DNA of 64,000 nt from Gilvimarinus xylanilyticus (GTDB taxonomy: Bacteria > Pseudomonadota > Gammaproteobacteria > Pseudomonadales > Cellvibrionaceae): contig NZ_JAMFTH010000001.1 in assembly GCF_024195295.1 (NCBI RefSeq), forward strand, positions 1,426,001 to 1,490,000, in the 5' to 3' direction. Positions 3,625 through 41,110 of the stretch are shown one piece after another (the stretch's first letter is position 1; each line of letters opens with the position of its first letter). Made by a program: the position numbers and the translations under genes. Under the pieces are notes generated by a model, which saw only the letters and a list, made by a program, of their open reading frames with translations, was not told the DNA's origin and searched no databases.

Positions 3625-4327
3625 CCACTTGATCGCTCAGTTGGCAGCCGTGCTCCGCCAAACGCGAGGCAATGGTGGGGTAAACAGAGCCTAAGCGCCG
3701 ACGATAAAAGGCGCCAAAACCGTTTTCATAGCGCCGATGCGCCAGACTAAAGGCTGCGGGAAATAGAGCGCGGTTTTTAATCGCAAAACTGTCCATCAGT
3801 TCTTTACCACTGGCGAAATTCACCACCCAGAGTCCATTGGGGCTGAGCAAGCGAGTCAAGGCATTACACCAGTGTTCGTCCACCGCTTGCACCCGCGTAG
3901 GTTCAGAGCCCGACCCCACAAATAAATCATCCACTATCACATCAAACCGAGGACCGCGGTAAAAACGCACAAACTCCAGCGCATCGGCCGCGTAGAGTGA
4001 CATCTGTGGGCCACGCACCCCAAAGTAATCGCGCGCCAGGGTCAGGTGCGCCGCGCTGATATCCACGCCGATAACTAGCGCCTCGGGGTAGAGTTGATTC
4101 AGCTTGCGCATTACCGCACCGCCGCCTACCCCCAAGACCAAAACACGTTTAACCTCCGGCTGGGCCAGCGTGGGCAACCAGAGCAGATCCCACAAGTTAT
4201 CCTCAAGCAAGCGCTGGGGATGATACTGACTGTGAAAAACGCCGTCGGTATACAACCGCAAACTGCGTCCGGCGCGGCGCACTTGGCACACCTGCCCCCA
4301 CTCATCGGTTAATTGCGCGACAATCAT
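3605..4327 (-). CDS. Spermidine synthase-like methyltransferase-fold protein
   Basis: A 240-residue protein with the spermidine synthase/PMT fold: SAM-type glycine loop VLVLGVGGGAVMRKL, acidic ribose-binding VIGVDI, and the family-like DVIVDDLFVGSG segment where true spermidine synthases carry the catalytic Asp. It lacks a recognisable N-terminal spermidine synthase domain of full length and a polyamine-binding signature, so its substrate is unknown; many such proteins are annotated only as spermidine synthase-like. It overlaps the 5' neighbour (DnaJ-related) by 4 bp, suggesting an operon with it, and overlaps rsmC convergently by 20 bp. Confidence 0.8.
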   Translation of the reverse strand: MIVAQLTDEWGQVCQVRRAGRSLRLYTDGVFHSQYHPQRLLEDNLWDLLWLPTLAQPEVKRVLVLGVGGGAVMRKLNQLYPEALVIGVDISAAHLTLARDYFGVRGPQMSLYAADALEFVRFYRGPRFDVIVDDLFVGSGSEPTRVQAVDEHWCNALTRLLSPNGLWVVNFASGKELMDSFAIKNRALFPAAFSLAHRRYENGFGAFYRRRLGSVYPTIASRLAEHGCQLSDQVVIRSAR

Positions 4328-4929
4328 TCGCCACTCCGATAGCAGCGTTGCAGCACCGACATCGCCCCGTTAATCTCCTGCAGGGTTTGGGTATCACCGC
4401 CGCGATCCGGGTGCGCCTGCATCGCCAGGCGCCGATAGCGCTGTTTAATCTCGCGGTAATCGGCCGAGTCGTCCAAACCCAGCGCATCCAATGCCCGGGC
4501 CTTGTCATCCGAGGCAACCCCAAGCCTTTGAAATTGGCGCCAGAAATCATCCAGCAGCGCTTGCACCGATGCATCCGTTGCATCGGCGTGATGCTGCCAA
4601 TCCAGATAAAAAGTCCGTAGCTTGGCCTCGCGCGGGGTATCCACGGCGGACTCTCGCGCCGTACTGATGGCGTAAACCCGCACGTCCACCAACCCAATCG
4701 CCAACCCCAAATTGCGGGCAAACAACTCGTCTTTAAGACGATAGAGCGCGTTAAACAAAACAAAATGGGCGTGAAATAGCTTCCGCGGGCTGGTGCTGAA
4801 ATCGGCGGGCAACAACTCCCGCGCCACCATAATTTTAATCAGGCTGTGCTCGGTATAACCGTCCCCCGCCTCGCACAAAAGTTCGCGCAGTGGCCCAAGC
4901 AGCGGATTAGCGGTGTCGTCAAGCTTCAT
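4324..4929 (-). CDS. DnaJ-related protein with C-terminal J domain
   Basis: About 201 residues. The N-terminal part (NPLLGPLRELLCEAGDGYTEHSLI) matches the DNAJ-related N-terminal domain seen in gammaproteobacteria; the last 55 residues are a J domain with the HPD tripeptide (AMQAHPDRGGD) needed to stimulate Hsp70 ATPase. It is therefore a probable DnaK co-chaperone of unknown client. I start at ATG 4929 (MKLDDTANP); an in-frame ATG at 4977 would add 16 hydrophobic residues not expected for the family. Co-directional with and overlapping the spermidine-synthase-like gene. Confidence 0.82.
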   Translation of the reverse strand: MKLDDTANPLLGPLRELLCEAGDGYTEHSLIKIMVARELLPADFSTSPRKLFHAHFVLFNALYRLKDELFARNLGLAIGLVDVRVYAISTARESAVDTPREAKLRTFYLDWQHHADATDASVQALLDDFWRQFQRLGVASDDKARALDALGLDDSADYREIKQRYRRLAMQAHPDRGGDTQTLQEINGAMSVLQRCYRSGE

Positions 4930-5117
4930 AAACAACCTGATTAGGAGAAAAAAACACAGCCAGTGGCGCATCGCCACTAGTGCCTGCAGTATAGCGGTAA
5001 GGCGCCTATCGACTCCAACGTAAGCCTCGCTATCCCCTTGAATTGTATAGACTTAATACAAAATGGGGGCTTTTTAAGCGAAGCCGTTATTTTCTTGGAT
5101 TTTTTTACCCTCAGGGG

Positions 5118-5144
5118 TTGACCAACTTGGGATCGCTCTATAAT
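5118..5144 (+). promoter_or_regulatory. Probable promoter of tRNA-Asn
   Basis: A -35-like TTGACC (5118-5123) and a perfect TATAAT (5139-5144) with a short 15-bp spacer precede the tRNA by 32 bp. The GC-containing discriminator after the -10 box is common for stable RNA promoters. The spacing is shorter than ideal, so the -35 assignment is tentative. Confidence 0.6.
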
Positions 5145-5176
5145 ATGCGCACCACTTCCACAGCGGAAGTCACTGA

Positions 5177-5252
5177 TCCGCCTTAGCTCAGTTGGTAGAG
5201 CAAATGACTGTTAATCATTGGGTCGCTGGTTCGAGCCCAGCAGGCGGAGCCA
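5177..5252 (+). tRNA. tRNA-Asn (GTT)
   Basis: 76-nt cloverleaf with acceptor stem TCCGCCT/AGGCGGA, D-arm TAGCTCAGTTGGTAGAGC, anticodon loop CTGTTAA with GTT at 5210-5212, T-arm containing GGTTCGAGCC, and an encoded CCA end. A promoter lies upstream and a rho-independent terminator at 5261-5290 follows directly. Two degenerate copies of its 3' half lie just downstream. Confidence 0.97.
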
Positions 5253-5260
5253 AACATTGA

Positions 5261-5290
5261 GAGGGCTGCCCATTTGGGTGGCCCTTTTTT
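5261..5290 (+). terminator. Rho-independent terminator of tRNA-Asn
   Basis: GC-rich stem (AGGGCTGCCCA paired through G-U wobbles with TGGGTGGCCCT) with a two-base loop, followed by a six-T run ending at 5290. It starts 9 bp after the CCA end. Confidence 0.88.
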
Positions 5291-5294
5291 ATGC

Positions 5295-5372
5295 CCAATG
5301 ATTACCTCTTTATTTGTTAATCATTGGCTGAATCAACGATTCAGCCTAGTTCGGCCCCAGCAGGCGGAGCCA
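5295..5372 (+). pseudogene. Degenerate tRNA-Asn 3'-half copy 1
   Basis: From the anticodon (GTT at 5316-5318) the sequence GTTAATCATTGG repeats the tRNA-Asn anticodon arm, and 5348-5372 repeats the T-loop, acceptor 3' strand and CCA. The 5' half of a tRNA is absent. In its place are two perfect hairpins: CCAATGATTA (5295-5304) with TAATCATTGG (5318-5327), and GGCTGAATC (5326-5334) with GATTCAGCC (5338-5346). It cannot fold as a normal tRNA. It is followed by its own terminator. Origin is unclear: decayed tandem duplication, remnant of tRNA-targeted integration, or a structured RNA. Confidence 0.7.
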
Positions 5373-5383
5373 AATTTAAGATG

Positions 5384-5416
5384 AAGGGGTTGCCCAGAGA
5401 TGGGTAGTCCCTTTTT
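5384..5416 (+). terminator. Terminator after tRNA-Asn 3'-half copy 1
   Basis: Stem GGGGTTGCCCA with TGGGTAGTCCC (several G-U pairs), loop GAGA, then a five-T run. It matches the position and style of the terminator behind the intact tRNA-Asn, but the stem sequence has diverged with pairing kept. Confidence 0.7.
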
Positions 5417-5423
5417 CGTTACG

Positions 5424-5505
5424 CGACCGAATGATTAGCTCTTGAACTGTTAATCATTGGTCGAATCGGCGATTCGACCTAGTTCGAGCTCAGCGGGCAG
5501 AGCCA
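5424..5505 (+). pseudogene. Degenerate tRNA-Asn 3'-half copy 2
   Basis: Second truncated copy: GTT at 5449-5451, GTTAATCATTGG as in the tRNA, and 5481-5505 as a diverged T-loop/acceptor/CCA segment. Two hairpins again replace the 5' half: 5424-5437 pairs with 5451-5463 (one bulged G), and GGTCGAATC (5459-5467) pairs perfectly with GATTCGACC (5471-5479). Compared with copy 1, two base pairs of the second stem have changed on both strands. The acceptor strand GGGCAGAGCCA no longer matches the tRNA-Asn acceptor. Confidence 0.68.
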
Positions 5506-5512
5506 AACATCG

Positions 5513-5544
5513 AAAAGGCCGTATCCCCGGATGCGGCCTTTTTT
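5513..5544 (+). terminator. Terminator after tRNA-Asn 3'-half copy 2
   Basis: Strong hairpin AAAAGGCCGTATCC with GGATGCGGCCTTTT, two-base loop, and a six-T tail. It lies 48 bp before ppnP, so ppnP probably has its own promoter or depends on read-through. Confidence 0.88.
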
Positions 5545-5591
5545 ATGTCTGTTTATCAAGCACAACCACTATCCAGCATAAGGACTCAATC

Positions 5592-5876
5592 ATGTTTGAA
5601 GTCAATAACTACTTTGAAGGCAAGGTTGCCTCCATTGCCTTTCAGGGCGAAAAGCTGCCCGCTACCGTGGGCGTCATGGCCCCCGGCGATTACGAATTTG
5701 GCACCAGCCAGAAAGAGTATATGGCGGTTATCAGCGGTGCTCTCACCGTAAAACTACCGGGCTCGGATGAATGGGTCACCTACGGCCCCGGCGAAAAGTT
5801 CGAGATTGAGGCCAACCAGAAGTTCGGCGTAAAAGTCGAGGTAGACACCGCTTACTGGTGCCTGTACGAAGACTAA
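5592..5876 (+). CDS. ppnP: Pyrimidine/purine nucleoside phosphorylase PpnP (DUF1255)
   Basis: 94-residue single-domain cupin; the E. coli homologue (YaiE) phosphorolyses a broad set of nucleosides to base and ribose-1-phosphate. The sequence [18 protein letters not shown] and the C-terminal [11 protein letters not shown] are characteristic. ATG 5592 gives the usual length; a longer in-frame start runs back through the terminator and tRNA remnant and is not credible. It ends with a 4-bp convergent overlap with the following minus-strand gene. Confidence 0.93.
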
Positions 5877-7348
5877 TCACACACCGCAAACGCCCTGCTC
5901 TGCCCACTTAGCACCGACTCGAGTTGCGCCAGGGCGCAGGGCTTTTCTCCCATTACCCCGTGACCTATTCCCGAGTATTGAGTTAGCTGGCTCTGGGGCC
6001 AACGCTGGGCTAAACCCTCGGCCCACCGGGCGGGCGTAATAGGGTCAAACTCCCCGGCGACAATCACGACCTTGGGACGCCCCACATCATTTTCCCATCG
6101 CGGCCAGTGCGGGGGTTCAGCCAAGGGCCAGTCGTGACATATCTGATCCTGCCAAGCACTTTCCAAGTAGGGTTTTAATAGGGGACGCTGGACCAGCAAT
6201 TGGCGATAATCCCGCTCCAATCCTATTGGGTTATCGCGGCAATCCACCGCTAAAAACGCCAGCGAGTTAACCGCTTTAGAAACCACTTGATTGGCGTAGC
6301 GCTCGATTAATGGGGCGATAGCCTCGCGGTCGCGCTTGCGAGCGCCAGCCATGGCCCGAATGGCCAAAGACCAGCGATCGCGCCGGTAGCTTGCAGCAAA
6401 AAGCGCGGCGATAAACCGGTGGTCGCTGACAAGCACCCGCTGAGGCAAGCCATCCAAAGCAATGTCGACCTTCACCGGCAAGCGCGCCAGATACTCCAGG
6501 GCGCTTTGCAGACGCGAGATAAACTGATCGCGATTTAGAGGCACGTCGGGATAAGCCTGCTGCCAGGCACTCACACACTCAGGCTGAGAACCGCAGGCGC
6601 TGGCAAAGCGATCAATGGCTTGCCCTAAAACCACGGGCCAGCTGGCTACTCCACCGGCGTCGGGCGGATAGACCGAATCCAGCACCAGGGTTTGCAGACC
6701 CGGCGTCGCGGCCGCCGCGATGGCCAAACGACTGCCGTAAGACACCCCAAAAAGGTGGAACTGACTGAGCCCCAGCTGCTCGATTAAGGCCTGTAAATCC
6801 GCAAAGTTGTGGCGTGTTCCAAAGGCCTGTGGATCGAATAAAGGCTTAGCCGCTATACAATCCAATAATGCCTTTTTCGCAATACGCGACTCCTGGGCCG
6901 GGGGGATGCTCTGCGCCAAAAACTTTTTCCCCAAGCGCTCAACACCGCGACACCGCAGCGAGGATTGTGGATCGGTGCCGCGGCGCTGCATCACAATTAA
7001 GTCGCGCTTTAACTGCGCATAGTCCCGCCAGCTCTCCCAATAGCGAAGGCCGGATTCGCTAAAGTCGGCATCCAGCCCCGGACCACCCTGCAAATAGAAC
7101 AGGGGGGCCGCTTTTTTATCCTCTCCTTTATAAGCCAACCGCCGAACAGCCAGCTCAAAGCCATCGGGTGTTAGCAATTGACCACATTCCCAATCAGCCA
7201 AGGCGGGGTTACAGGGAGCAGCCCGATACTGATAACCGGTGGTCTCAGCACTCGTCTGCTCCGGCGATGTTTGCGCGCCAAACCACACGGCTATCGCCAG
7301 TGCTACAGCGCCTAACAAAGCAATTACAGCGGCTACGCCTTTGGCCAT
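5873..7348 (-). CDS. Alpha/beta hydrolase of the tricorn/prolyl aminopeptidase type (TAP-like C-terminus)
   Basis: 491 residues with an N-terminal hydrophobic segment (about residues 4-24) acting as signal or anchor, so probably periplasmic or membrane-attached. The nucleophile elbow GVSYGS, an acidic residue in [10 protein letters not shown] and a His in GIGHGVM form the catalytic triad pattern; the C-terminal part resembles the TAP-like domain. Likely a serine peptidase or esterase; the exact substrate cannot be told. Its start lies 16 bp inside the preceding pseudouridine synthase gene, suggesting translational coupling. Confidence 0.85.
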
Positions 7349-40888: not shown

Positions 40889-40964
40889 TGGTGGGTCGTA
40901 CTGGATTCGAACCAGTGACCAATTGGTTAAAAGCCAACTGCTCTACCAACTGAGCTAACGACCC
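40889..40964 (-). tRNA. tRNA-Lys (TTT), copy 1
   Basis: 76-nt cloverleaf read leftward: GGGTCGT acceptor stem, D-arm TAGCTCAGTTGGTAGAGC, anticodon loop CTTTTAA with TTT, T-loop GGTTCGAATCC, encoded CCA. Identical to the copy at 41035-41110. Confidence 0.97.
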
Positions 40965-41034
40965 GTAAAACTGATTGTGTGCCAATTCCTGTGGCGGATG
41001 ACCGGCGGCGCTCAGTAAACTGCCCGTCTTAATA

Positions 41035-41110
41035 TGGTGGGTCGTACTGGATTCGAACCAGTGACCAATTGGTTAAAAGCCAACTGCTCTACCAACTGAG
41101 CTAACGACCC
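41035..41110 (-). tRNA. tRNA-Lys (TTT), copy 2
   Basis: Identical 76-nt sequence to the copy at 40889-40964. The 70-bp spacer is also related to the sequence after copy 1 (both contain GCTCAGTAAACTGCC), so the whole 146-bp unit was duplicated in tandem. First of the two in transcription order. Confidence 0.97.

Follow-up and report, generated by a model that had tools for sequence, protein, structure and literature searches.

The window, a stretch of 64,000 nt from the genome of Gilvimarinus xylanilyticus, contains an intact tRNA-Asn(GUU) gene with a terminator-like hairpin, followed by two tandem repeat units, each with two hairpins and a terminator of its own (Table 1). This arrangement had been proposed in an earlier note made from the sequence, and it was borne out here. 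The neighbouring genes are ppnP, a DnaJ-related gene and a gene for an alpha/beta hydrolase. The sigma-70-like promoter of the tRNA gene is the sole promoter-like site listed in a consensus scan of positions 4900-5900, where about 0.8 such sites are expected by chance, and on the complement strand near the units the same scan revealed no promoter-like site. Among the three hairpins behind the tRNA, the scan listed only the one at 5512-5543 as a terminator; the other two were found by reading the sequence. The units are 79 nt long each, show 80% identity across 81 nt and follow each other with a spacing of 133. When 77-nt pieces of the units were folded and compared with shuffled sequences, z-scores of -4.01 (0/200) and -3.15 (3/200) were obtained.

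Two further observations were made around the locus. The DnaJ-related gene is located at 4324-4977 upstream of tRNA-Asn, and in another genome (G025, L025) a similar-looking protein, translated by eye, is found behind tRNA-Asn and a remnant of the first unit hairpin. At 40889-41110, on the minus strand, the window harbours two tandem intact tRNA-Lys genes.

Table 1. Features of the tRNA-Asn locus (positions are those of the window).
Feature	Position	Strand	Sequence or basis
Sigma-70-like promoter of tRNA-Asn	5118..5146	+	TTGACC, 17-nt spacer, TAATAT
Intact tRNA-Asn(GUU)	5177..5252	+	ARAGORN; Rfam tRNA 69.8 bits
Terminator-like hairpin of the tRNA	5262..5290	+	sequence reading; tail comparison
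Unit 1	5294..5372	+	direct repeat; R1 95.2 bits (row itself used in building R1)
Unit 1, hairpin 1	5295..5327	+	CCAATGATTA ... TAATCATTGG
Unit 1, hairpin 2	5326..5346	+	GGCTGAATC AAC GATTCAGCC
Unit 1, tRNA-derived 3' part, ends at CCA, T-stem broken	5347..5372	+	
Terminator-like hairpin of unit 1	5384..5416	+	tail similar to the tRNA tails of G003, G004, G005 and G007
Unit 2	5427..5505	+	direct repeat; R1 91.4 bits (row itself used in building R1)
Unit 2, hairpin 1	5430..5458	+	AATGATTA ... TAATCATT
Unit 2, hairpin 2	5459..5479	+	GGTCGAATC GGC GATTCGACC
Unit 2, tRNA-derived 3' part, ends at CCA, diverged	5480..5505	+	
Terminator of unit 2	5512..5543	+	consensus scan; tail comparison

Composition of the units

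Each unit consists of the 3' half of the neighbouring tRNA-Asn from the anticodon on, plus a tail, and contains two hairpins which are held at fixed places while their letters change. Hairpin 1 replaces the 5' half of the tRNA. Its 3' arm is the anticodon-loop and stem sequence: the tRNA-derived part begins at the anticodon with GTTAATCATTGG (nt 34-45 of the tRNA), and the 5' arm is complementary to it. Hairpin 2 is situated inside the 3' half, where it replaces nt 46-48 and takes in G44-G45 together with the first two bases of the T-stem. Behind it the tRNA sequence restarts at the T-stem, with CCTAGTTCG in the units versus GCTGGTTCG in the tRNA. This third part extends from the T-stem to CCA, its T-stem being broken by the change of GCTGG to CCTRG, and in the window each unit is then followed by its own terminator-like hairpin. 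The constant layout is GTTAATCA, hairpin 2 and CCTRGTTCG, and hairpin 2 interrupts the tRNA sequence in every one of the 27 units aligned, which were taken from 41 distinct ones. The earlier description of two hairpins in place of the 5' half thus holds for hairpin 1, but hairpin 2 lies within the 3' half. The positions assigned to hairpin 2 in both units were right, and so was the statement that two adjacent base pairs differ between them, with both partners altered and pairing kept.

The units share the sequence of the tRNA-Asn 3' half with canonical tRNA (RF00005), but they have neither the 5' acceptor strand nor the D-arm, and their T-stem is broken; with the acceptor 5' strand missing and the T-stem not intact, neither window unit qualifies as a tRNA. 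They were not called as tRNA genes by ARAGORN (window) or Rfam (window and six loci), and near the units only 5177-5252 was called. All non-tRNA rows of Rfam stayed below the gathering scores in the window and the six loci, and no RtT row appeared at E up to 10 in positions 4900-5700 of the window or at E up to 0.1 in the six loci. A small protein was also rejected, since the ORFs over the units are all shorter than 40 aa, the ppnP frame, extended upstream, being the one exception.

Occurrence in other genomes and turnover of the arrays

A DNA search of 97 relatives revealed a longer array in G004 and single units elsewhere. The array of G004 comprises five units, one of them decayed, and a leftover hairpin 1; decayed units are represented by the first unit of G004, G173 and G520. 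A covariance model built from 11 units (R1) was applied to the window's family, and matches above the cut of 55 bits were obtained in 8 of 144 genomes (G000, G004, G006, G018, G034, G044, G060 and G174). Within the window's genus, units are present in 3 of 8 genomes. On 390 genomes of the order, all listed R1 matches >45 bits outside the window's family belonged to one family (f43), which is probably the Alcanivoracaceae, and a second covariance model, of the unit core (R2), agreed with this when applied to the same genomes. In G319 the unit lies at 1891680-1891766. In this family 16 of 46 genomes carry units (E up to 1e-9). A pattern scan of named genomes yielded 21 stretches, among others from Gilvimarinus, Marinagarivorans, a Cellvibrionaceae isolate, Alcanivorax and Alloalcanivorax, and it also matched the marine clades HTCC2089, TMED92 and K189A. 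The family holding the HTCC2089 and K189A clades had matches in 5 of 200 drawn genomes; a draw centred on an HTCC2089 genome gave 4 of 200, all four contained in the former five. In these two clades neither a clear 5' arm of hairpin 1 nor an evident terminator is seen; hairpin 2 is retained, as are CCTRGTTCG and GTTAATCA, the latter with one letter altered in two units. Among 369 genomes sampled from the class, no unit was present besides the window's own, and the one other genome listed scored like plain tRNA-Asn. Intact tRNA-Asn reaches about 38 bits with R1 and 52.6 bits with R2, and such rows were not counted as units; in searches across more than 40 genomes, stricter filters apply and weak matches are lost. 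Overall, the units were located in three gammaproteobacterial families. Because their presence is so patchy, between families and also within the genus, the units are considered dispensable.

To describe the position of the units, 41 strings were used, one of which is a chance match and was left out. For 35 of the remaining 40 units an intact tRNA-Asn is found within 1.1 kb upstream. The other five comprise two units in L151, which have a tRNA-Asn 3' fragment upstream, and three units (L011, L137 and L148) which are too near to the contig start for this to be seen. A tRNA-Asn fragment is located also upstream of the G174 unit, which was missed by the pattern used in this check. Two individual units deserve mention: that of G044 (L020 1324-1391) harbours a 68-nt insertion with inverted repeats inside its acceptor part, and the one near a contig start in L011 (1-205, G034:C138) has a different sequence upstream of its terminator, which may be an island end or an assembly break.

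The tails give information on how the arrays change. The tail behind unit 1 of the window is 0.78-0.89 identical to the tRNA tails of G003, G004, G005 and G007; the identity of the window's own tRNA tail to the same four is 0.64-0.69. Between genomes, tRNA-tail identity has a median of 0.64 and a 95th percentile of 0.80. The nearest relative of the tail behind unit 2 is the tRNA tail of G002 (0.78), a value within this background, and the tRNA tails of G001 and G006 match neither of the unit tails. Judged by these identities, terminators seem to have been exchanged in part between the tRNA and the units within the genus, and arrays probably grow and collapse by recombination via the shared tRNA 3' end. 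If the tails were reassorted in this way, the ancestor of the genus would have had an array, of which five of the eight genomes kept no unit. That units are gained, lost and reshuffled by recombination involving the tRNA 3' end together with the tail would be a supported, if not proven, step in the history of the arrays.

Integrating elements and related systems

In several genomes, tRNA-Asn 3' fragments which start at about nt 22-37 are located distant from the gene. The sites are G174 (L201, L202), G161:C14:51650, G148:C1:4864842, G026:C1:264669, G007:C1:857854 and L151, and the distance between gene and fragment is about 150 kb in G174, about 36 kb in G161 and G148, and about 5 kb in G026. 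Such fragments suggest that tRNA-Asn is an integration hotspot, and they would mark integrated elements; in the viral contig L151, an integrase gene (PF00589) directly adjoins the fragment. Further, the phage CBW1004C-Prop1 has a 60-base match which takes in tRNA-Asn sequence. Together with the start of the tRNA-derived part at the anticodon, a boundary which may betray an integrase-type origin, these data could mean that the units are integration scars, as considered in the earlier note, or landing or decoy sites of tyrosine-integrase elements using tRNA-Asn.

We regard this explanation as improbable. An attR scar should carry the tRNA sequence without a break between the crossover and the 3' end, but the aligned units are all interrupted by hairpin 2, and the distant fragments that were read are plain tRNA without hairpin 2. 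Since scars leave hairpin 2 unexplained, we do not adopt a bare scar reading. Neither an integrase gene nor an element body lies beside the copies in the window, where they are flanked by an ordinary ppnP gene, and in L151 the integrase is situated beyond the tRNA fragment. Moreover, both G174 and L151 have their units on the host side, outside the element, and in G174 no unit follows the tRNA copy on the side of the element. Therefore these elements do not carry units, and an island-carried unit was rejected. Phage- or plasmid-borne units were rejected as well, as no record holds 80% of the query; among the 24 matches listed in these searches, one set covers a short stretch of query bases 1-32 and the rest mostly the tRNA part, two of the searches giving the best ten of 898 and the best ten of 1598 matching records.

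The sublocation classes of Williams reportedly comprise tRNA 3' fragments left by integrating elements. The units share with them the boundary at the anticodon loop and the sequence up to the tRNA 3' end, but are interrupted by hairpin 2, arranged in tandem and located on the host side of the element in G174 and L151. Behind tyrT of E. coli, tandem repeats which hold the tRNA 3' end are said to give rtT RNA. In both systems a tRNA gene is directly followed by tandem units which each contain the tRNA 3' end; however, the tRNA and the sequence are different, and the units described here contain a half from the anticodon on and two covarying hairpins. T-box elements, integron attC sites and REP-type hairpins were considered and dropped as candidate identities for the units. 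In the literature searched, we recognised no description of tRNA-Asn tail units.

Pairing, strand asymmetry and interpretation

Covariation was analysed in three alignments. A1 contains 11 hand-chosen units, while A2 (tRNA strand) and A3 (complement strand) contain the cores of 27 of the 41 distinct units, the 14 omitted being near-duplicates, truncated or interrupted. In A1, the named structure is paired in 93.0% of the cells, 17 cells are two-sided, and the covariation score is 0.287 as compared to 0.107 after shuffling (0/500 shuffles as high). The score is 0.374 in A2 and 0.449 in A3 (shuffled 0.158), in both cases with 0/500 shuffles as high and with far lower values for slid versions; in A3, 46 two-sided cells fall into hairpin 2. 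Pairs with two-sided change do not stand out (54 and 40 of 500 shuffles as high in A2 and A3, respectively), and neither do further pair types (437 and 62 of 500). Thus, by the score and the two-sided cells (0/500), pairs covary beyond the shuffled and the slid controls, as expected for a structured noncoding RNA. Because the shuffles leave the relatedness among the units in place, weight is put on direct contrasts, namely the two units of the window, the array of G529 and the match of hairpin 1 to the host tRNA.

The same hairpin architecture in three families, together with the covariation, excludes simple decay. This agrees with the argument of the earlier note that decay does not explain kept pairing, the pairing being kept across the three families. 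Intact tRNA-Asn genes do occur in tandem in relatives, G030 among them, but an origin of the units by progressive decay of such plain tandem genes is hardly conceivable, and the relatives carrying units did not show such decaying genes devoid of hairpins.

The two strands are not equivalent in pairing. On the complement strand 96.8% of the hairpin 2 cells and 98.1% of those of the T-stem remnant are paired, versus 91.7% and 78.3% on the tRNA strand, where the third T-stem pair of A2 is unpaired in 22 of 25 cells; RNAalifold yielded -15.27 kcal/mol for the complement and -13.51 kcal/mol for the tRNA strand. Read on the tRNA strand, hairpin 2 has 229 Watson-Crick, 12 A-C, 1 G-T and 3 other pairs (29 of 31 strings scored, two being omitted as weak, a truncated unit and a chance match), whereas the neighbouring terminators (n=27, of which L020 and L054 were shortened by the delimiting rule) have 261 Watson-Crick, 5 A-C, 31 G-T and 2 other pairs. 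Counted by cells, which are not independent, the contrast in G-T to A-C has a p of 8e-7, or 1e-6 with L218. The excess of A-C over G-T in hairpin 2 was 12 to 0 initially and 12 to 1 after more units were added. Counted as steps in a minimum spanning tree of 28 hairpins, there were 14 double changes, 10 A-C and 2 G-T half steps (p 0.039), one of the two G-T steps being due to a doubtful register in L134. L218, which was read by eye, adds one A-C and one G-T, and with its G-T the ratio is 10 to 3 (p 0.092). The outer stem of hairpin 1 shows no strand preference (3 A-C and 3 G-T cells) and the inner stem little (4 to 1).

The rarity of G-U intermediates on the tRNA strand of hairpin 2, unlike in the terminators, is evidence against an ordinary tRNA-strand RNA, while the asymmetry in favour of the complement strand is no more than a hint. 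The structured tRNA-derived RNA of the earlier note stands with respect to the conserved structure, but a form on the tRNA strand is not favoured. One could imagine instead that the complement strand yields a trans-acting RNA, or a single-stranded DNA, which pairs with tRNA-Asn from the anticodon to CCA, hairpin 2 being bulged out at the variable loop. The pairing percentages and the RNAalifold energies point in this direction, and the letters of the units track variants of the host tRNA; however, recombination with the host tRNA predicts such tracking equally, the units of the window and of G004 have drifted from complementarity, and a promoter-like site on the complement strand was not found in the window. 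We consider such pairing in trans quite unlikely. It also appears rather unlikely that the units are a new class of structured element on the opposite strand, whose folded product, RNA or single-stranded DNA, would be complementary to tRNA-Asn over the same span, with the same bulge, and would meet the tRNA, its gene or its fragments directly.

The direct contrasts indicate how the hairpins change. In G529, one array contains two units with differing inner stems of hairpin 1 and differing hairpins 2, all of them paired. Where the host tRNA has a different anticodon stem (AATCAGC, AATCAGT), a matching change is found in hairpin 1. In L080 (G174) and L131, the 5' arm of hairpin 1 repeats the tRNA-Asn anticodon arm exactly, in inverted form, over 16 nt and 14 nt, respectively, despite a changed 3' arm. 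Among four-base loops, AACT and AGTT are both present, which are mutual inverses, while the three-base loops of hairpin 2 that were compared are all purine-purine-pyrimidine and never the inverse. According to PMC8794818, replication template switching makes and mends hairpins in RNA genes. Inverted copies and paired multi-base changes without G-U intermediates are common to the hairpins treated there and to ours, but in that work RNA genes are concerned, and here tandem repeats which are derived from a tRNA and have no known product.

In principle, template switching could maintain the hairpins without any selection. The units would then be a functionless satellite of the tRNA tail which is turned over by unequal recombination and in which one arm is copied onto the other, a mechanism described in PMC8794818. 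Consistent with this are the paired changes with few G-U steps, the joint change of two neighbouring pairs in the window, the inverted anticodon-arm copy in hairpin 1, the two inverse four-base loops, and the patchy presence with decayed copies. Against a satellite of this kind speak the similar place and flanks of the hairpins over three families and the single orientation of the three-base loops (unlike the four-base loops). It also does not predict that A-C exceeds G-T, although this excess is weak. We hold a fully neutral origin to be possible but doubtful, and favour over it, tentatively and with a probability of about 0.43, that the units form a host-borne, conserved tandem repeat family ("tRNA-Asn tail units"), dispensable and structured, in which template switching renews the hairpins and the unit is kept because it functions as a folded single strand.

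For this conserved family the following course of events may be proposed. The unit would have had a single origin in a tRNA 3' half that had been duplicated or exposed by an integrase. Hairpin 1 presumably started out as an inverted anticodon-arm copy, a change typical of template switching during replication. Thereafter the hairpins would be renewed by template switching and selected, since the unit would act as a folded single strand. As the acting strand, the complement of the tRNA strand, or else DNA, is more probable than a transcript of the tRNA strand.

If the units are selected, they represent an undescribed structured element which, in three bacterial families, is linked to a single tRNA gene. 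Otherwise they are a natural array in which sister units have different yet paired hairpins, so that selection versus template switching can be tested directly. Either way they call for caution, as paired changes alone are no proof of a functional RNA. For a relative, Alcanivorax dieselolei B-5, a public dRNA-seq set exists (CRA008652; PMC9788540).
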